A stretch of DNA of 64,000 nucleotides from Gammaproteobacteria bacterium (lineage in GTDB: Bacteria > Pseudomonadota > Gammaproteobacteria > Pseudomonadales > Pseudohongiellaceae): assembly GCA_030831125.1 (NCBI GenBank), contig JAURLQ010000089.1, positions 1 through 64,000 on the forward strand, read 5' to 3'. Numbering within the stretch: position 1 is the stretch's first letter; each line of letters begins with the position of its first letter. The translations under genes and the position numbers were made by a program. Under the pieces are notes generated by a model, which was not told the origin of the DNA, did not search any database, and worked only from the letters and a program-made list of their open reading frames with translations. This document shows, one piece after another, positions 14,450-27,198 of this stretch.

Positions 14450-17041
14450 TTATCGGCTGACCTCGATGCTTTCTCCAGGGCCAGGTCCGCCGCCGCCGCC
14501 AGGGAAGTCACCCTTGGAAACCAGCTTGACCCACAGCGTGTCGTTACCTTTGTAGTAGGAAGTAATGTTGGCAGTACGCAGCGCATCCATGCTGCTCTGT
14601 GCCATGCCTGCGTCTGCCTTGGCGAATCCTGGCAACTCGAACATCACCCATGATCCTTCGTCCAACTCGGTCACGTTGATGTTCACGGTTTCCCTTTCGG
14701 TAGTTACCTTGTACTGGGTTCCTGCGCGCACATTGGTTGTACCGTTGGCAGTAAATTCATTGCCATTGCGGCTGAGCACAACAGGTACTGAAGGTGGACG
14801 TACGCCTCTGATACGGCCACCACCAGGTGCAATTTCAAAGGTCGTGGGGGCAGCACCCCCGCCGAAGCCAAAGCCCAAAGCACCACCTCCGCCGCCAACA
14901 TTCATGCGGCCAATATCACCTGTACACACATAAGCCTTCCAGGTAGGCCTGGCTTCGCATGCTTCGTCGGGGTCGATGCCGGTTTCATTGATGATGTAGG
15001 AATCCGGAATACCGGTAATGGTGCCGTCCTTGTCTTTGAATACCGAAGTCAGGTAAACCGTATTTCCGTAATCATCGTTGCTCCAGCGGTTTTCAATCGG
15101 CGGGAAGTACACCGGCTTGGCATTTTCAAAGGTTGAGCGCGCAACAACGTTGTTGGAACTCATGCCGAAGCTGGTATACAGCAGGTAGGAAATTGCCCCG
15201 GTCTTGCGGGTGTCGTTGTCCTGGTAATTGATGAAGGTATTGCCATCCAGTTCATGATGGAAGTCGTAGAACTCGTAGCCGCGGATCGGGAAATCCGCAA
15301 CATTGGGATGCGGCAGACTGCGACCGTAGGCCAGTTCAACCGGCTCGGTGGGGTTGCCGATATTGCCGGATTCACCCACGAACAGCGAGTCAATCACCTT
15401 CGAGGTAAATTCGGACGGACCGAAACCGCCGGAGGCATGGGTGAAGCCAATGCCGTTATCAGCCATCTTCAGGTTCCTGTAAACATGCTTCTGCCCCCTG
15501 GCCCAGATGCCGCTATTGCGGTTCTTGTAGGAGGTGAAGTCCTCAATAAGGTCTTCTACTTGCGCGCTCTCTCCGTCAGATGGGTCGGCCAGGGCAATAT
15601 ACCCGCCCACACCGAAAGTGCCATCGGCCCTTGGAGCGCGGTCGCCCATGAAACCATCAAAGTTCGAATGGGAAACGTTGCCTTTGAATTCCCGGAACTT
15701 CATGCGGCGCGGCCAGGTAGCCATACTCACATCCGAGCCTTCGAACGCGCCTGTAGGATGTACCGGAAAGGCCAGCCAGAACCCGGTAGAGTCGGAGCCC
15801 GCGGACACATTGTCGCGGTAGGTGTTATCCGGATTGGTTATCCAGTATGAGGCGGCCGTGTTGTCTGAAGGGATCAGGATTTCCGGAGAGTTCTGCCCGG
15901 TAGTGGTGAAGTTCAAACCGTCTGGAGTTGATCCGAACGGAGCAAGGTTGGTTGGATCGCAGGGCAAGGACGTATGGCATTTGGTCTGGATTGCGAGGTT
16001 GCGGATATACTCGTTGCCGGTTTCAATGCCGTCTTCCATGAAGAAGCAGTGGCCCACGGTATTGTAGGTAACGTTGTTCTCAACCTGCAGATTGTTGGTG
16101 CCATGCACCGTTACGCAACGGTTGTAGGTGTCGTGGATCGCCGCGTTGCGGACATACTGCCCCTCGCCTGCGTCCCCAACAAGATGCCAGTGGATCGGAT
16201 AACGGGCAAGCTCCAGATTCTGACCCATGCGATAGAGTTCAACTCCCTCAACATACATTTTGCTGGTAACCATGCCCATGATGTGACCGCCGAAGAATGA
16301 CTGCTCGGCATCACCAGAGGCCTGCACCTTTATGTTGCGTGTCAGCAATCCCACTTCACCGCGCTGATCCACACCGAAGGTGATCTCACCAAAGTGCATG
16401 TAGTCCAGGGGCGCGTCAAGGGTGATGGAGTTTCCGCTGATGGCTGTGATATGGCGGGTTTCAGCCTGGCGCGGATTGAAATCAGTTGAGGCAAGAACAA
16501 TCTCGTCACCAATCTGCCATTGGGCGGCATTGAGCACTTCGATCGTGTTGCTGCCAGCCTCGGCAGTGCTGGCCAGCTTGGTCCAGGCATTGGTGCGGTT
16601 GCCGTGCAGGTTCAGGGTACCGCCCGACAGCATGATGCCGCGATCGCCCATACCCATCAGCTGTTCATTCTTGACCTTATCGGTGAGGGTAATGGTTGCC
16701 CTGCTCTTGTGGGGGCTGGCTTCGGTACCTATTTCAAGTTCGCCGAACACCATGATCCACTCGGTAGCCAGCTCAAGATCGGTGTTGTCTGCAAAGCTGA
16801 GCTTGCCATTGATGGTCAAACCACTCAGTGCCGGCGGGCTGACATCAAGAATCACTTCCTTGCCGTTCTCGATAACGACCCTGTCGCCTTCAACCGGCAC
16901 CTTGTTGTCTGGCCAGGTGGCAGGATCGGACCAGCGTAATTCCTGGCCCAGAGCATTGTGGTAGCCAACGAGCAGGAAACAGACAGACAGGATCTTGATG
17001 AATAATCGGGTCTGCAAGAACCCGCGATAATTGATTGTCAT
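14450..17041 (-). CDS. Secreted G8-domain, parallel beta-helix protein related to CEMIP/TMEM2
   Basis: The 863-residue product (ATG at 17041, preceded by GGGGGA; an earlier in-frame start is less likely) begins with a signal peptide ending HNALGQ. A G8 domain covers about residues 35-145 (LRWSDPATW, GDRVVIENG, LTINGKL). A right-handed beta-helix region follows and carries motifs shared with animal CEMIP and TMEM2: YPIHWHLVGD (281-290), RCVTVHGTNNL (308-318) and GHCFFMEDG (330-338). Those animal proteins degrade hyaluronan. A glycine-rich linker and a small C-terminal beta domain end the protein. A polysaccharide-degrading or carbohydrate-binding role outside the cytoplasm is inferred; the substrate in this bacterium is unknown. 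It is monocistronic with a strong terminator. Confidence 0.8.
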   Translation of the reverse strand: MTINYRGFLQTRLFIKILSVCFLLVGYHNALGQELRWSDPATWPDNKVPVEGDRVVIENGKEVILDVSPPALSGLTINGKLSFADNTDLELATEWIMVFGELEIGTEASPHKSRATITLTDKVKNEQLMGMGDRGIMLSGGTLNLHGNRTNAWTKLASTAEAGSNTIEVLNAAQWQIGDEIVLASTDFNPRQAETRHITAISGNSITLDAPLDYMHFGEITFGVDQRGEVGLLTRNIKVQASGDAEQSFFGGHIMGMVTSKMYVEGVELYRMGQNLELARYPIHWHLVGDAGEGQYVRNAAIHDTYNRCVTVHGTNNLQVENNVTYNTVGHCFFMEDGIETGNEYIRNLAIQTKCHTSLPCDPTNLAPFGSTPDGLNFTTTGQNSPEILIPSDNTAASYWITNPDNTYRDNVSAGSDSTGFWLAFPVHPTGAFEGSDVSMATWPRRMKFREFKGNVSHSNFDGFMGDRAPRADGTFGVGGYIALADPSDGESAQVEDLIEDFTSYKNRNSGIWARGQKHVYRNLKMADNGIGFTHASGGFGPSEFTSKVIDSLFVGESGNIGNPTEPVELAYGRSLPHPNVADFPIRGYEFYDFHHELDGNTFINYQDNDTRKTGAISYLLYTSFGMSSNNVVARSTFENAKPVYFPPIENRWSNDDYGNTVYLTSVFKDKDGTITGIPDSYIINETGIDPDEACEARPTWKAYVCTGDIGRMNVGGGGGALGFGFGGGAAPTTFEIAPGGGRIRGVRPPSVPVVLSRNGNEFTANGTTNVRAGTQYKVTTERETVNINVTELDEGSWVMFELPGFAKADAGMAQSSMDALRTANITSYYKGNDTLWVKLVSKGDFPGGGGGPGPGESIEVSR

Positions 17042-17254
17042 GATTTTCCCCCAGCAGTCCAATAGGCAAGAATAAACCATTCTCATCTAAAATCGTACGT
17101 GATGGTATAACTGAATTTGTGAATAAATAATGAAAATCGGAAATGACCCGCCCCGCAGCAGACTTTGTTACACTGCAGCCCTGGAGTCTGCCGGACCCCG
17201 ATTGCCAGGCTGCGGCAAGCTCAAGCCATGTAAATCAACACTTTTGAACAGTAA

Positions 17255-17677
17255 ATGCCCATAATTCCCGTCATGCCCAGGTTTCACCTTTTGTTTGCCT
17301 TCGCCATGGCAATCCTTGCCCCCACTGTCCAGGCAGCAGACACTGCACCGGACATCCCGGATATCGAGCACGGCAAGGCAACATTCAACATCATGTGCAG
17401 CGTTTGCCATGCAGTACAGAAGACAGGAGGCCCCGTGGAAGGCCCCAATCTGCTGGGGCTTGTTGGCCGCAAGGCTGGCAGCCAGCCCGGGTTTGCCAAG
17501 TACTCGGAGGCGCTCAAGGCCTCCGGACTTATCTGGAATGAAGGGACCCTCAACCGTTTTCTGGTGAATCCCATGGCAATGGTACCCGGCACCCTGATGC
17601 CGATGCTGATACCTGACGACAAGACCCGTGCGGATGTGATTGCCTACCTCGCTACACTTGAGGCACCTGAGAAGTAA
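17255..17677 (+). CDS. Class I cytochrome c, periplasmic
   Basis: A 140-residue mono-haem cytochrome c that would carry electrons between periplasmic redox enzymes and the respiratory chain. The second Met (17273) gives a clean signal peptide ending VQA and may be the true start. The haem site is CSVCH (48-52), and GTLMPM near residue 113-118 supplies the distal methionine. The GPNLLGLVGRKAG and FAKYSEALKASGLIW segments match cytochrome c2-like proteins; the same pattern is fused to the sorbosone-type dehydrogenase at 32388-34121. It ends at a large inverted repeat shared with the convergent ferritin-like gene. Confidence 0.92.
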   Translation: MPIIPVMPRFHLLFAFAMAILAPTVQAADTAPDIPDIEHGKATFNIMCSVCHAVQKTGGPVEGPNLLGLVGRKAGSQPGFAKYSEALKASGLIWNEGTLNRFLVNPMAMVPGTLMPMLIPDDKTRADVIAYLATLEAPEK

Positions 17678-17768: not shown

Positions 17769-18962
17769 TCACACGGAATTCAGTAGCTGGTCATAGAGAT
17801 CGATATTGAAATCGGCTGGCAACAGGTTCTCGAGTGAACGGGCAAAGTCACGGGTTTCCTGCAGCATCATGTGGGCAAAGCGTTTGTTTGCTGCCTCGTT
17901 CAATCCGGGATTGAAATCCATGCTCAGCGGGTCGAAAGGTACCGCGGATCCCCTGGTTGGCAGGTAGCGGGCAATCGAGTTGAGCGGCCCCAACATGATG
18001 GACTGGGCCAGTGCAACATCAGTTGCAGAACTGCTCCTGTAAGCTGAATCCAGCATCAACAACATACTCCAGTAATTCATATAGCCCAGCCAGGCCAGAG
18101 CCCTCAGTTCTGTATCCTCAATGCTGGTTGGACGGCCATCATACGCAGTTGGATTTATGGGTACATCATGGCTCGGATAACGAGCATTGGATGCGGGAAG
18201 TGTCCAGATGTCAGGTGTGCCCTCGATAAGTGGGTGTGACGCCTCATAGAGGGAATGAAAGAACTGGAAGTGACCGAATTCTCCTTCAGCTTTTACGTCG
18301 CCGATTTCCTGGAACCACGCATTGTAATCCAGCTCAAGATCGGCGGCTTCCTTGAGTTCAGCAAGAGTGGTGATAACTGCATCGTAGAGTTTTCCGACAT
18401 GATTGGCTGCGATTTCTCCGCCGAGGGTACCCTTTATCTTGTCGACCAGATAAACAGAATTGCTTTCGACAGACCTCACACGCGCAAGGCGAACCGGATC
18501 GGCTTCACAATAGGTATATTTGGCCAGACTGACTGAGCTCAATGGTGCAAGCTCAAACGGAAATGGATAGAGGTCTGTCTCGTAGGGAAAGTCCTGGCGC
18601 GAAAGTACCGGTGCAGCACCCAGCTCAACCAGAAGCCGGTTTACCCCTCGCAGGTGTTGCATCTCCTCGATGATAACGCCCATGAGTGAAGTCGAATTCG
18701 GAGCTGGCGCACCGACGATTTCAGCATAGCCGGGTTTGAGCGCTTAGGCACTGTAGAGATACTGGATCATGAGGTCATGTTCAATCTCCGAGGCTTCCTT
18801 CAGCAACCGTACAATCTCGAGATAAGGATCGTCGAAACTCCGCTTTACCGTGGAAAACCGGTGGGTCTTCCGCGCAGCGATAGCCTTGCCATGACCAGCG
18901 GCTAGACCAAACATGGCCATACTGCGCAGTAACGCGCGGCGCGTGTAATCCTTTCCTTTCAT
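17769..18962 (-). pseudogene. VioB-type ferritin-like domain protein, broken by an in-frame TAA
   Basis: One continuous frame from ATG 18962 to 17769 would encode about 397 residues, but TAA at 18744-18746 stops it after 72. The part before the stop has a twin-arginine-like leader (TRRALLRSMAMFGLAA) and the first ferritin-like helix (EASEIEHDLMIQYLYSA). The next codons continue the same helix (ALKPGYAEIVG) and the second helix (IIEEMQHLRGVNRLL), so the carboxylate/His pairs of a di-iron centre lie on both sides of the stop. The family includes VioB-type iminophenyl-pyruvate dimer synthase domains. A TAT/TAC tyrosine to TAA change would explain it. Either a recent pseudogene or a read error; an internal ATG at 18683 lacks the first helix. 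Confidence 0.82.
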
Positions 18963-21844: not shown

Positions 21845-23413
21845 ATGAGAGCCATGACAATAACAAGAATTCATTCTGCGCTACTGCTGTGCCTGCTTGC
21901 ATCCGCCCCCTTGTTGACCCCAGTTGCAACCAGTGCTGCCGGGCTGATTACAGCAGTTCGCGATGGAGATTCAGCGCTGTCAAAACAGTTGCTTGTTGAA
22001 GGTGCTGATCCGGATATTGCCGAGCCTGATGGCTCCACTGCCCTGCTCTGGGCTGTCTACAACTCTTCTCCTGAACTGGTTTCGTTGTTGCTTGAAGCCG
22101 GCGCAAACCCTGACACTCCGAATTCGCTTGGAATTTCGCCACTACTGCAGGCCAGCCGCTATGGCAATGCAGGAATGATCAAGTCACTTCTTTCCAAAGG
22201 CGCATTACTTCCCTCCGCTTCCGGTAGCACAGAAACACCCCTGCTGGCTGCTGCCAGATCCGGGAGTATTGATGCGGTCAAAGTGCTGCTGGATGCCGGA
22301 GCAGATCCGGATGCAACAGAGCCACTTCATGACCAGACAGCACTCATGTGGGCTGCAGCTGAAGGTCACCTTGATGTTGCCGGACTATTGCTGGAGGCCG
22401 GTGCAGACCCGAACGGGCATGCCAGGTTAAACACGCTTGCCGAACGGAAGAATGCCGATTTTCCTACAGGGGGATTCACTGCCCTGCACTGGGCCGGCCG
22501 AAATGGAGATGAGGGAATGATTCGACTCCTGCATGAACGTGGCGCCGATATCAATACCATCAACGGTGACGGGGCAAGTCCCATGATGCTGGCTATTGTG
22601 AACGACCGTTTTGATATCGCGGCACTGTTTCTTGAGCTTGGCGCCAATGCTGACGATGGATCTCTGTTCTATGCCACAGAAATGCGGGATGCCACTACTG
22701 ACTGGCGCGCCAAAGACGGCACAATCTACAGGGCAGATCATCCCAATTCACTTGACGCATTGGCGCTCACAGAACGACTTCTCCAGGCAGGCGCAAACCC
22801 GAATCAGGTAGTGAATATGCAAATGCATAACACTTCCATGTGTTGTGATACCAAAGCTGCAACAACTCCGTTCTATCGGGCTGCAGTTGCTGCCGATGTA
22901 CAAGGTCTCAGAATGATGCTGGCTTATGGTGCCGACACAGCCTGGAAGCCGCCTGTTGCAACGAAGGAAGGAGAACCTGCACCCGATGGGAACCTGGGTA
23001 CTACCGCACTGATGGTCGCTATCAATGGTGGCAAGGGAGTCGGGATTTCTGGTGGCCCGAATGATATTCGCCAGACCCTCCCGCCATTCAGGGAACCCGG
23101 AAACCGTAATCCGCTTGATGCCATAAACGTACTCCTTGAGGCAGGCGCTGATGTGCATGCCAGGGACATCAATCTCGAGACTGCGCTGCATATAGCTGCA
23201 AAGGCTTTGCATCCGGGGATTGTGAAAGCCCTTGTTGCCCATGGCGCAGACATCGATGCCGTCAACAAGGACGGTGACACGGCTTTGCAAGTTGTGGATA
23301 AAATGGAAGTGCCGGCCCCACGTCCCGGTTTTCCATTTTTTCCGCCTCCGGCGCAACCAGCTGAAATTATCGCCTTGTTGCAAACATTGAAAACCGGCAA
23401 ACAGGCTGAATGA
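21845..23413 (+). CDS. Exported ankyrin-repeat protein, module A
   Basis: A 522-residue protein with a signal peptide (about 1-31, ending TSAA) followed by some ten ankyrin repeats; TALLWAVYNSSPELVSLL and TALMWAAAEGHLDVAGLL are clear units. A longer insert between repeats (about 290-370) contains a Cys-Cys pair and a proline-rich C terminus follows. The second ATG (21854) has better spacing from AGG. Its stop overlaps the next start as ATGA, so translation is coupled to the DUF1592 gene. Export of ankyrin repeats to the periplasm is uncommon; the position suggests it binds or assists the two redox-type partners. It is the only module in which the ankyrin gene comes first. Confidence 0.85.
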   Translation: MRAMTITRIHSALLLCLLASAPLLTPVATSAAGLITAVRDGDSALSKQLLVEGADPDIAEPDGSTALLWAVYNSSPELVSLLLEAGANPDTPNSLGISPLLQASRYGNAGMIKSLLSKGALLPSASGSTETPLLAAARSGSIDAVKVLLDAGADPDATEPLHDQTALMWAAAEGHLDVAGLLLEAGADPNGHARLNTLAERKNADFPTGGFTALHWAGRNGDEGMIRLLHERGADINTINGDGASPMMLAIVNDRFDIAALFLELGANADDGSLFYATEMRDATTDWRAKDGTIYRADHPNSLDALALTERLLQAGANPNQVVNMQMHNTSMCCDTKAATTPFYRAAVAADVQGLRMMLAYGADTAWKPPVATKEGEPAPDGNLGTTALMVAINGGKGVGISGGPNDIRQTLPPFREPGNRNPLDAINVLLEAGADVHARDINLETALHIAAKALHPGIVKALVAHGADIDAVNKDGDTALQVVDKMEVPAPRPGFPFFPPPAQPAEIIALLQTLKTGKQAE

Positions 23414-25860
23414 GCCAGAGAGCTCCAGGCAAGCATATGAAGATGAGGGGAATTGCAATGGCCGGTCTGACTCCGGCCATATTGTCGATATCAGTGGCTG
23501 CCCAGGCGCCAGATCCTGCGCTGGCAGATCATTGGAACATGATTGGCACCTACTGCCTCGATTGCCACGACTTTGACAGTTTCAGTGGAGGACTTTCGCT
23601 GGAGGCTTTTTCCCCAGAAGATGTAGCCGACAATCCGGAAGTATTCGAGAAAGTTCTGCAAAAACTGAAGATCCATGCGATGCCTCCGCGCAAACAGGAG
23701 CAACCCGATGAACGTGAGCGCACACGCTTTGTTGCTGCGCTGGAAAAGACGCTGGATGATGCTGCAGCTGAAAATCCCTATGCAGGCAATACCACCATTC
23801 ACCGCCTGAACAGAGCTGAATATGCCAATGCCATTCGTGATCTGCTTGGTGTTGATCTCGATCTTGCCGAACTGCTACCCAGCGACGGGGGCGATTTCGG
23901 CTTTGACAACATTGCCGAACTGTTGCGTACCTCTCCCCTGTTACTCGACCGCTATATGACTGTGGGCTTGCGTGTAGCTGATCTGGCCATGGGTAATGAT
24001 GAGGCTGCACTGAGTGTAACGAGCTATACCATCCCCTTTGATACTTCGCAGGAAAAGCATCTGTCCGGATTTCCCATTGGCACACGCGGGGGGGTGCGCA
24101 CTACCCACTATTTTCCGTCTGACGGCGAATACATATTCTCTGCCCGTCCACTGCAGGGAGTGGCAGAAGGGTACTTCGGCATTGAAGGACATGATCGTCC
24201 GCATGAGTTTCTGGTTTATCTGGATGGCGCCATCATCTATTCAAGCGAAATAGGTGGAGAAGAGCAGCACGCCATCAGTATCAAGGAATTCAATGATGTA
24301 ATCCCCGTAGTAAACAGACAACTGACTTCGCCACGGATTCCGGTCACTGCCGGACCTCATGAAGTGGTATTTACATGGCGCGAAAGGGTTACTGCCGAAC
24401 AGAACTCCTGGCAACCACCTGCACGCAACACACTTGAAATCCACAATCCTTCAGGCATGCCAAGACTTGAAAAAGCCCAGATTGAAGGACCATACAATCC
24501 TGCAGGCATAAGCAACATGCCAACCAGAGACAGGATTCTGACCTGCACTCCACAAATGTCCGATGGAGAAGACAACTGTGCAAGGGAAATTCTGTCCAGC
24601 CTTGCCCGCAAGGCCTTTCGTCGACCGGTAAATGCTGAGGACATTGCAGCGCCACTCGATTTCTACCTGGATGAACGTGTCAGAGGCGGCACTTTTGATG
24701 AAGGCATTCGTGTTGCCATCGCCCGCATGATAGTCAGCCCCTTCTTTTTGTTCCGGATTGAAACCAATCCGCCCGACACTGCCCCCGGATCAGTGCAGCC
24801 CCTGAGCGATCTGGAACTTGCCTCACGCCTTTCCTTTTTCCTGTGGTCATCCCTGCCCGATGAAACACTGCTGTCTTTGGCAGAATCAGAATCGCTGCGT
24901 AACGAAGAGGAACTGCAGGCACAGGCCGGGCGCATGCTTGCTGATTCACGGGCCGATGCCTTTGTGGAGAATTTTGTCGGTCAGTGGCTTCAACTGCGTA
25001 ATCTCCAGATGCGGGCCCGGCCAGACCTGCTGATGTTCCCCGACTTTGATGACAACCTTCGCCAGGCCTTCCGCAGGGAAACAGAGTTGCTGTTTGCCCA
25101 TGTGCTCAGGGAAAACCGTCCGGTGCATGAACTGCTCACAGCAGACTACACTTTTGTGGACGAACGTCTTGCCCGGCACTATGGTATTGAGGGTGTTTAT
25201 GGGGCCCGCTTCCGCAAGGTTGCCGTTGAGGATACCAACCGCCAGGGTCTGTTCGGACACGGCAGTCTGCTTTCCCTGACATCGGCCAGCAGCAGAACTT
25301 CCCCGATCATGCGCGGCAAATTCATCCTCACTGAATTCTGGAACAATCCACCACCACCTGCACCACCCAATGTGCCGGCACTCGACGAAAGCATTCCGCA
25401 GGGACGCCCGTCAACCATACGGGAAAGACTGGAGCAACATCGCAGTGATCCCGCCTGCTCTTCCTGTCACGATATTATCGATCCGGTCGGATTTGCACTG
25501 GAAAACTTCGATGTGGATGGCGCCTGGCGCGAAACCACGCGGGAAGGTCTGCCGATAGACTCTACCGGCATACTGCTTGATGGCTCGCCAGTGAACGGAC
25601 CACAAGCCTTGCGTGAAGCCCTGCTCAAGGATCCTGAACTGTTTGCCAATACCATCACCGAAAAACTCATGGTTTATGCTCTGGGTCGTGGCCTTGATGC
25701 CAGAGACATGCCGGTAGTACGCAGTGTTGTACGTTATGCAGCAGAAAATGATTATCGTCTGCAGTCCATAATCACAGGAATTATTACCAGTTATCCCTTT
25801 CTTATGCGGACCAACAGCGACGCATCCAACATCAGCACCATCGCAAGTATGGGAGATTAG
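23410..25860 (+). CDS. DUF1592-family exported protein with two CxxCH sites, module A
   Basis: An 816-residue protein in the DUF1587-1595-1592-1588-1585 (PSD/PSCyt) architecture first described from planctomycetes; function unknown. Signal peptide ends about residue 32 (VAAQ). CLDCH (49-53) in a cytochrome-like N terminus and CSSCH (683-687) in the DUF1588 part could attach haem. In between: HRLNRAEYANAIRDLL (DUF1587), RKAFRRPV (DUF1595), LASRLSFFLWSSLPDE (DUF1592), TSPIMRGK (DUF1588); the C terminus has EKLMVYALGRGLD (DUF1585). The ATGA start overlap may be supplemented by ATG 23437. DUF1552 follows after three bases. A periplasmic oxidase or electron-transfer role is inferred from the haem motifs only. 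Confidence 0.9.
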   Translation: MSQRAPGKHMKMRGIAMAGLTPAILSISVAAQAPDPALADHWNMIGTYCLDCHDFDSFSGGLSLEAFSPEDVADNPEVFEKVLQKLKIHAMPPRKQEQPDERERTRFVAALEKTLDDAAAENPYAGNTTIHRLNRAEYANAIRDLLGVDLDLAELLPSDGGDFGFDNIAELLRTSPLLLDRYMTVGLRVADLAMGNDEAALSVTSYTIPFDTSQEKHLSGFPIGTRGGVRTTHYFPSDGEYIFSARPLQGVAEGYFGIEGHDRPHEFLVYLDGAIIYSSEIGGEEQHAISIKEFNDVIPVVNRQLTSPRIPVTAGPHEVVFTWRERVTAEQNSWQPPARNTLEIHNPSGMPRLEKAQIEGPYNPAGISNMPTRDRILTCTPQMSDGEDNCAREILSSLARKAFRRPVNAEDIAAPLDFYLDERVRGGTFDEGIRVAIARMIVSPFFLFRIETNPPDTAPGSVQPLSDLELASRLSFFLWSSLPDETLLSLAESESLRNEEELQAQAGRMLADSRADAFVENFVGQWLQLRNLQMRARPDLLMFPDFDDNLRQAFRRETELLFAHVLRENRPVHELLTADYTFVDERLARHYGIEGVYGARFRKVAVEDTNRQGLFGHGSLLSLTSASSRTSPIMRGKFILTEFWNNPPPPAPPNVPALDESIPQGRPSTIRERLEQHRSDPACSSCHDIIDPVGFALENFDVDGAWRETTREGLPIDSTGILLDGSPVNGPQALREALLKDPELFANTITEKLMVYALGRGLDARDMPVVRSVVRYAAENDYRLQSIITGIITSYPFLMRTNSDASNISTIASMGD

Positions 25861-25863
25861 AAA

Positions 25864-27198
25864 ATGTTCATCAAAAAAAAGCATCTTGATCGACGTACAC
25901 TGCTGAGAGGTGTCGGTACCGCACTGGCACTGCCGCTGCTTGATGCAATGGTTCCAGCAGCCACAGCACAATCCGCTACCGCCGCAGCTGCCAGATTGCG
26001 CTTTGGTGCCATTTACGTACCCAATGGCATCTATCCGGATCACTGGCATCCGACAACAACCGGACGTGGTTTTGACTTCAACCGCGTAATGAAACCGGTT
26101 GAGGCATACCGCGAGTATGTGACCACCATCAGTCGTCTCAAGTCTCCGGAAGGCGCCCAGGACATGGGAGGCATCCATATGGGCGCCAGCGCTGCCTTCC
26201 TCAATGGAGCCGGCCCTTTGAGTGAAAACGGCAACTTCAATCAGCTGCGGTCAAAGAAATCTCTCGACCAGTACATAGCTGATGCAATAGCCGGTGACAC
26301 GCCAATACGATCACTGGAAGTGGGCACAGAAGATATGGGTACTGCCGCCGGGGCCTGCGACAACTATCCTTGCATATTCTTCAACACAATGGCCTGGTTT
26401 GACGATGAAAGCCCCCTGCCGGTAGCAGTCAGTCCGCAATTGACCTTTGAGCGTATGTTCGGTGACCCCGGCACTGCAGAACAGAGACTGCGTCGCCTTG
26501 AGACCAAACAGAGCATGCTCGATTCTATTCTTGATGAATCAAGACGGCTGGAGCGCATGCTGGGTGCAAGTGACAGTGCACTGCTTGATGAATACCTCAC
26601 CAATGTGCGCCGTATTGAAGACCAGATACAGAAACTGTCTACCCGATCAGCAATCATTGCTGAAACAGAGGGAGGTCCGGTGGGTATACCCGAGGATTTT
26701 GATACTCACATGACCCTTACCTATGACCTGATCCACCTGGCTTTCCAGGGAGACATGACCCGTGTATTCAGTTTCATGACCGGGCATGAGGCCACCGGAC
26801 GCAGCTATGCGCACGTGGGAGTAAACGAGCCTCACCATAATGTTTCCCATCACCAGAATACCGAGGAAAGCCTCGATAAATACTCGCGCATCACCACGTA
26901 CCAGATGCAGAAATTTGCGGAATTTGTAGCCAAAATGAAAGACACGCCTGATGGCGATGGCAGCCTGCTTGACTCATCTCTACTGTACTTCGGAGCAGGC
27001 ATGAGTAACGGCCTTGTACACGACAGGCATAATGTACCGGCAATGCTGGTGGGACGTGCAGGAGGCCGACTTGCAGGCAATCGTCACATCCAGGCCAGTG
27101 AAGATGAACCTACATCCAACCTGCTGTTGGGCATTGCCGATATCATGGGTGCCGAGCTTGAGACTATCGGGATTGCAACCGGACGTCTGACAATATAA
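25864..27198 (+). CDS. DUF1552 (HxxSHH) Tat-exported protein, module A
   Basis: A 444-residue protein of unknown function with a twin-arginine leader (LDRRTLLRGVGTALALPLLDA) cleaved near TAQS. The family-defining HxxSHH motif is HNVSHH (325-330). A C-terminal block (GDGSLLDSSLLYFGAGMSN, then AGGRLAGNRH) is shared with the other three copies in this window. It may be related to the DUF1501/alkaline-phosphatase fold, since metal-ligand-like His and Asp residues recur; this is inference. It follows the DUF1592 gene after three bases and ends at a terminator. Tat export suggests folding or cofactor insertion in the cytoplasm. Confidence 0.9.
   Translation: MFIKKKHLDRRTLLRGVGTALALPLLDAMVPAATAQSATAAAARLRFGAIYVPNGIYPDHWHPTTTGRGFDFNRVMKPVEAYREYVTTISRLKSPEGAQDMGGIHMGASAAFLNGAGPLSENGNFNQLRSKKSLDQYIADAIAGDTPIRSLEVGTEDMGTAAGACDNYPCIFFNTMAWFDDESPLPVAVSPQLTFERMFGDPGTAEQRLRRLETKQSMLDSILDESRRLERMLGASDSALLDEYLTNVRRIEDQIQKLSTRSAIIAETEGGPVGIPEDFDTHMTLTYDLIHLAFQGDMTRVFSFMTGHEATGRSYAHVGVNEPHHNVSHHQNTEESLDKYSRITTYQMQKFAEFVAKMKDTPDGDGSLLDSSLLYFGAGMSNGLVHDRHNVPAMLVGRAGGRLAGNRHIQASEDEPTSNLLLGIADIMGAELETIGIATGRLTI

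Follow-up and report, generated by a model that had tools for sequence, protein, structure and literature searches.

The 64,000-nucleotide stretch of DNA analysed here (the window) encodes a protein from the CEMIP/TMEM2 branch within the G8 beta-helix superfamily, cut down to its core. By its domains, its helix match and its domain X it belongs to the CEMIP/TMEM2 (G8 beta-helix) family in the broad sense, and it is no singleton, being one of hundreds of bacterial relatives. It is filed outside the strict-sense CEMIP/TMEM2 hyaluronidases on account of the missing GG domain, the disputed activity of TMEM2 and the open question of the active site. The initial annotation, which had read it as a bacterial homologue of the animal hyaluronidases, is right on the family and over-read the function. 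We give about an even chance (probability of roughly 0.5) to the reading that the beta-helix is itself catalytic through a cluster of conserved residues, acting in the manner of a lyase on a uronic-acid polysaccharide other than hyaluronan.

Gene, domains and kinship with human TMEM2

The gene lies at positions 14450..17041 of the minus strand, as do all features given below by range (863 aa, stop codon within the coordinates). Its open reading frame is real, starting with an ATG at 17041 and running uninterrupted as far as the stop at 14450. A likely ribosome-binding stretch, GGGGGAAAATC, was read from the sequence just 5' of the ATG (17042..17052), and a promoter and terminator scan gave signal at the level of shuffled sequence. 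Residues 1-32 (16946..17041) were judged by eye to form a probable Sec signal peptide, with a basic start, a hydrophobic core and the motif ALG-Q, and on that basis the protein is likely to be exported by Sec. Model confidence is low in this region (aa 1-31; AlphaFold2).

The G8 domain that had been claimed was confirmed at aa 42-157 (16571..16918), where PF10162 matches at 5e-30 (104 bits against a curated cut-off of 22.9) and makes up the first turns of the beta-helix. It is followed by CEMIP_beta-hel (PF24606, 8e-80; 268 bits against 27.3) at aa 250-462 (15656..16294). Beyond these two, no domain of the 863-aa protein exceeded the Pfam cut-off; at E<=1 Pfam added only Beta_helix and K1-lyase_Rider, and an NCBIfam scan returned no match. 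The three motif blocks quoted as typical of the animal proteins are present, namely YPIHWHLVGD (aa 281-290), RCVTVHGTNNL (aa 308-318) and GHCFFMEDG (aa 330-338).

Homology to CEMIP/TMEM2 is borne out by sequence, fold and tree. A phmmer search against all PDB sequences gave a single match, the human TMEM2 ectodomain 8c6i (E 1e-84), and the profile search that had been proposed as a check, run with a profile of five paralogues, matched the same chain at 6.5e-110 and nothing else among PDB sequences at E<=10. With the Pfam matches, these values exclude a chance resemblance. About 550 residues align with TMEM2 at 35% identity; within aa 175-345 the figure rises to 45% in the window protein and to 49% in the closest member of the clade. 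The AlphaFold2 model, built from a 66-row alignment (pLDDT 83.5, pTM 0.86), is a right-handed parallel beta-helix at about aa 34-717 (14891..16942) with a C-terminal beta-sandwich corresponding to TMEM2 domain X at aa 750-863 (14453..14794). TMEM2 was the best PDB match in Foldseek (E 4.6e-44, TM 0.76 by query), the runner-up reaching 1.7e-11 and TM 0.21. Superposition with VIA-align, the other proposed check, placed model residues 32-863 on TMEM2 118-1156 (Z 37.4, rmsd 3.6 A, 754 residues), far more than a generic beta-helix would give; the next family was the AlgE4 epimerase, with Z 19.6 over 333 residues. The C-terminal 114 residues, modelled alone (pLDDT 87.6), found TMEM2 1004-1156 as their top match (Z 9.3, rmsd 2.5, 112 of 114 residues; next match 7.5), and the profile alignment with TMEM2 extends to the start of domain X. 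Helix and domain X are thus common to both proteins, as are G8 and the cysteines C309/C332 and C695/C706, while the transmembrane anchor of TMEM2 is absent from the bacterial protein.

Missing lectin-like domains and a candidate active site

TMEM2 has an inserted lectin-like (GG) domain and a C-terminal lectin-like domain, whereas the bacterial protein has neither. The site of the insert was placed at aa 157-167 (16541..16573) from the profile alignment and Pfam: about 9 bacterial residues stand against the stretch of 8c6i from chain residue 166 to 341, and the roughly 175 residues found at this point in TMEM2 comprise a small beta-sandwich and lectin-like domain 1 (the GG domain). No GG domain was found in Pfam scans of the window protein. 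The second domain is likewise absent, since the model stops at the position that corresponds to TMEM2 residue 1156.

CEMIP (HYBID) is a paralogue of TMEM2 (CEMIP2). Substitutions in the GG domain, at R187 of HYBID and at R265, D273, D286 and H248+A303 of TMEM2, abolish hyaluronan degradation (PMC10276149, PMC10206443). Whether TMEM2 and CEMIP are enzymes is itself disputed (PMC10206443, PMC10474455, PMC10276149): human TMEM2 has been reported as inactive (PMC10206443, PMC10276149) and as a bona fide hyaluronidase (PMC10474455). For the purified soluble human ectodomain, hyaluronidase activity was undetectable and hyaluronan was not bound, and the active site of CEMIP/TMEM2 is regarded as an open question with no agreed groove (PMC10206443). 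CEMIP activity is reported to require living cells (PMC11764312).

Neither GH88 nor GH20 was found in the genome of the bacterium, and hyaluronan catabolism in this genome was rejected for lack of both; its four sulfatase matches are uninformative in this respect. Hyaluronan as a substrate is therefore unsupported, given that both lectin-like domains and both enzyme families are missing, and so is the label of hyaluronidase.

A total of 121 positions show at least 95% conservation in the 66 bacterial rows and are identical in TMEM2. Within the proposed active-site block at aa 280-340 (16022..16204) they include R280, Y281, H284, H286, R308, H313, H331, E336, D337 and E340. Across 12 distant bacterial G8 proteins, Y281, H313 and E336 are invariant wherever aligned, and H253, H216 and H286 nearly so; RYxxHxH (280-286) is found in all 12, with H or S in place of R in two, and across the superfamily E336 is conserved and E340 mostly so. 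The identical TMEM2 counterparts include R546, Y547, H550, H552, H585 and E608 (8c6i chain index plus 82, checked on C554). In the AlphaFold2 model H284, H313 and E336 lie on or just past strands 283-285, 310-312 and 331-335, and when the turns are aligned by hand, by sequence register, H286, H313 and E336 form one row with C309 above C332. These two cysteines, conserved throughout the clade and in TMEM2, probably form a disulphide linking neighbouring turns; the list of unpaired cysteines in TMEM2 contains neither of the counterparts, C581 and C604 (PMC10206443). The groove-middle loops of TMEM2 (627-662 and 733-756) correspond by sequence register to about aa 355-395 and 466-489. We propose the cluster of RYxxHxH, H313 and E336 as the active site of CEMIP/TMEM2, with a catalytic role inferred from its conservation.

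In the reading that we favour, the beta-helix itself would be the working part. The residues R280-Y281-x-x-H284-x-H286, H313 and E336, helped by R308 and D337, would form a catalytic site on three consecutive turns. Their Tyr/His/Arg chemistry at the uronate C5 would most likely result in lyase-type cleavage of a polysaccharide containing uronic acid. The substrate would probably be an algal or bacterial acidic polysaccharide outside the cell, and probably not hyaluronan. This choice of a lyase on a non-hyaluronan acidic polysaccharide is favoured by the lack of a lectin-like domain, of GH88 and of GH20, and the many divergent copies per genome suggest that there may be several substrates.

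As regards fold, the closest matches after TMEM2 include the uronate-acting AlgE4, AlgE6 and AlgG (Z 18-20) and the NosD periplasmic protein; an alginate epimerase/lyase (Z 17.9) and the K1 capsule lyase (Z 17) follow in VIA-align. Alginate epimerases use Tyr/His/Arg sets. The mannuronan C5-epimerases AlgE4 and AlgG and the K1 capsule lyase act on uronates and, like the window protein, are right-handed parallel beta-helices; they align with Z 17-20 over about 310-380 residues, but with 10-16% identity, and none of them gave a sequence match at E<=10. For the mannuronan C5-epimerases (Z 18-20, 312-334 residues aligned) the likeness is one of common fold only, and their DPH catalytic motif is absent from the translated window protein. 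PL6 lyases of the chondroitinase B type gave no sequence-family match either (PDB sequences at E<=10; Pfam at E<=1). The similarity to epimerases and lyases is no demonstration of chemistry.

Three other explanations were weighed against the lyase reading. Hydrolases are common among beta-helix depolymerases; the P22 and Sf6 tailspikes are examples, and both appear among the VIA-align fold matches of the window protein. A glycoside hydrolase on the same helix, with E336, D337 and E340 as acid/base, would have a precedent in the fold and would agree with the retention of E336, and mostly of E340, across the superfamily; we consider it unlikely, as the strongest superfamily constant is rich in Tyr, His and Arg rather than a carboxylate pair, and most of the folds that rank next after TMEM2 belong to uronate C5 enzymes. 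Less probable still is a helix that serves as a non-catalytic binding or matrix protein, the depolymerisation linked to CEMIP/TMEM2 needing other proteins. The purified human ectodomain carries the same cluster and neither acts on hyaluronan nor binds it (PMC10206443), so the helix may be non-catalytic; the reported dependence of CEMIP on living cells (PMC11764312) points the same way, and the conserved residues may be structural or metal-binding (three His and one Glu). However, strongly conserved clusters of ionisable residues that run over successive turns typically mark a catalytic or metal site, and helix and domain X have been retained while the clade dispenses with the lectin domains.

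The third explanation, to which we give the least credit, takes the protein for a genuine hyaluronidase or a chondroitin-degrading enzyme of the CEMIP kind, in which the animal lectin-like domain merely improves capture. It would fit the identical type of fold and the helix residues that are all common to TMEM2, yet it has to do without the very domain in which substitutions abolish activity (PMC10276149) and in a genome without GH88 and GH20. Moreover, the relatives of the protein are mostly environmental MAGs and isolates whose record titles show no evident animal link.

Distribution, phylogeny and gene neighbourhood

The genome (3.16 Mb in 179 contigs) carries five copies of the gene, two of them in tandem (L011:10933-16323), and the other four are 60-66% identical to the window copy. 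All 11 sampled genomes of the same genus have one to six copies, as have 6 of 6 in one other genus; the remaining genera of the family gave none except two weak matches. Among other genomes of the class 6 of 368 matched, all weakly, and among other genomes of the phylum 2 of 397 matched strongly. A scan of the genome collection revealed 241 bacterial relatives with a patchy spread, and the best 78 of these 241 loci belong to Gammaproteobacteria (mainly MAGs), Alphaproteobacteria (Erythrobacteraceae, some of them cultured) and Acidobacteriota. Alteraurantiacibacter and Croceibacterium are among the cultured strains with a relative. RefSeq already names such genes 'G8 domain-containing protein', and no paper on a bacterial CEMIP/TMEM2 homologue was found in the literature searched. 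Tandem arrays were also observed elsewhere, with four genes in about 13 kb of a Euryhalocaulis MAG (L072:1912-14510). Two MAG records titled Klebsiella pneumoniae (L105) and Bordetella parapertussis (L115) carry clade genes and are probably mislabelled bins; the L115 copy clusters with Acidobacteriota sequences.

A viral origin was rejected, there being no relatives among viral contigs and only weak viral fold matches (TM <=0.31 by query). Plasmid carriage occurs, yet explains little of the patchiness: close relatives were found in one plasmid record, from Croceibacterium, with two copies, and the other plasmid matches are distant G8 proteins.

The other bacterial G8 types, among them those of Leisingera (L122), Planctomyces (L121) and Vitreoscilla (L120), share the G8 start and the RYxxHxH/H313/E336 core. 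Those that were compared are 31-44% identical to the window protein within aa 175-345. In these types the profile match fades past about aa 280-620 and the C-termini differ. A new observation is that TMEM2 outscores all 12 other bacterial G8 proteins tested on the clade profile, with 374 bits against 274 for the best of them, from Vitreoscilla, and at most 170 for the others. Scored in the opposite direction, from TMEM2, members of the clade reach 237-300 bits, against at most 85 for bacterial G8 proteins outside it. In plain identity within aa 175-345, the Vitreoscilla protein (44%) and TMEM2 (45%) stand about equally close to the window protein. Once the longest branches were taken out of the tree, TMEM2 grouped with the clade as its sister (99/96 support). 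The Planctomyces G8 protein fell outside this group, and a separate branch (100/99) took up the remaining G8 proteins, the Leisingera type among them. In a first tree that included the long branches L033, L034 and L120, the placement of TMEM2 was blurred (p-AU 0.25 and 0.33).

Acidobacteriota and proteobacterial rows are interleaved in the tree, and thus the gene appears to move between bacterial phyla. The trees hold human TMEM2 as their one animal sequence, and the direction of transfer is not readable from such a tree. The suggestion that the protein could show the ancestral activity of the fold is accordingly not borne out, as a single animal sequence adjoins the bacterial clade. Only tentatively, and with doubt, would we entertain an ancient bacterial polysaccharide-cleaving beta-helix, working through RYxxHxH, H313 and E336, that was transferred to animals and acquired its hyaluronan specificity after insertion of the lectin domain.

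The neighbours of the gene in the window, a cytochrome c (17255-17677), a ferritin-like protein (17769-18683), a TylF-like methyltransferase and a 2OG oxygenase, offer no substrate clue, and no carbohydrate-utilisation cluster was found around it. The wider neighbourhood was rejected as a clue as well, with no conserved cluster across the best 78 of the 241 loci. The adjoining cytochrome c gene recurs in seven loci, which was taken as shared descent. Genes of DUF6152 recur near family loci, a background effect given that this genome alone has 56 of them. So many matches to a single DUF6152-type protein (e.g. L013:15205-15618) within 3.16 Mb are an unusual expansion in their own right. Also in the window, positions 21845-27198 hold an ankyrin-repeat protein, a large cytochrome-like protein (about 810 aa) and a protein of about 440 aa, all named by eye; the genome has several copies of the trio, among them similar blocks at L011:3016-8333 and L012:1-5218.

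A possible partner of the CEMIP-like proteins is a protein of about 290 aa, encoded within about 100 bases of their genes at L043:2658-3641, L070:4610-5482, L072:4705-5685 and L099:7397-8575. It is 60-73% identical across Gammaproteobacteria, Alphaproteobacteria and Acidobacteriota, has a signal-like start, is probably secreted, and found no counterpart in Pfam at thresholds up to E 10. A more distant relative lies within the same distance of a CEMIP-like gene at L107:4168-5982. The protein is adjacent by position also in genomes G016 and G014, of which G014 seems to be the source of L043. In G006 and G011 its copies are close to contig ends, and the window copy has no such neighbour. On a plasmid of Leisingera sp. 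NJS204 (L122, 1-6996), a distant G8 gene lies among genes for a glycosyltransferase, a sulfotransferase and an O-antigen ligase, which agrees with an exopolysaccharide as substrate of the Leisingera-type G8 protein and suggests that this type takes part in exopolysaccharide processing.

Implications for the CEMIP/TMEM2 family

A soluble homologue that keeps the helix residues and is free of lectin-like domains, and that is present in cultured Erythrobacteraceae, opens the disputed active site of CEMIP/TMEM2 to direct tests. As it is without exactly the lectin part that bears the published activity mutations, it could help to locate that site. It would also bear on the point from which the animal lineage started, before hyaluronan became its substrate.
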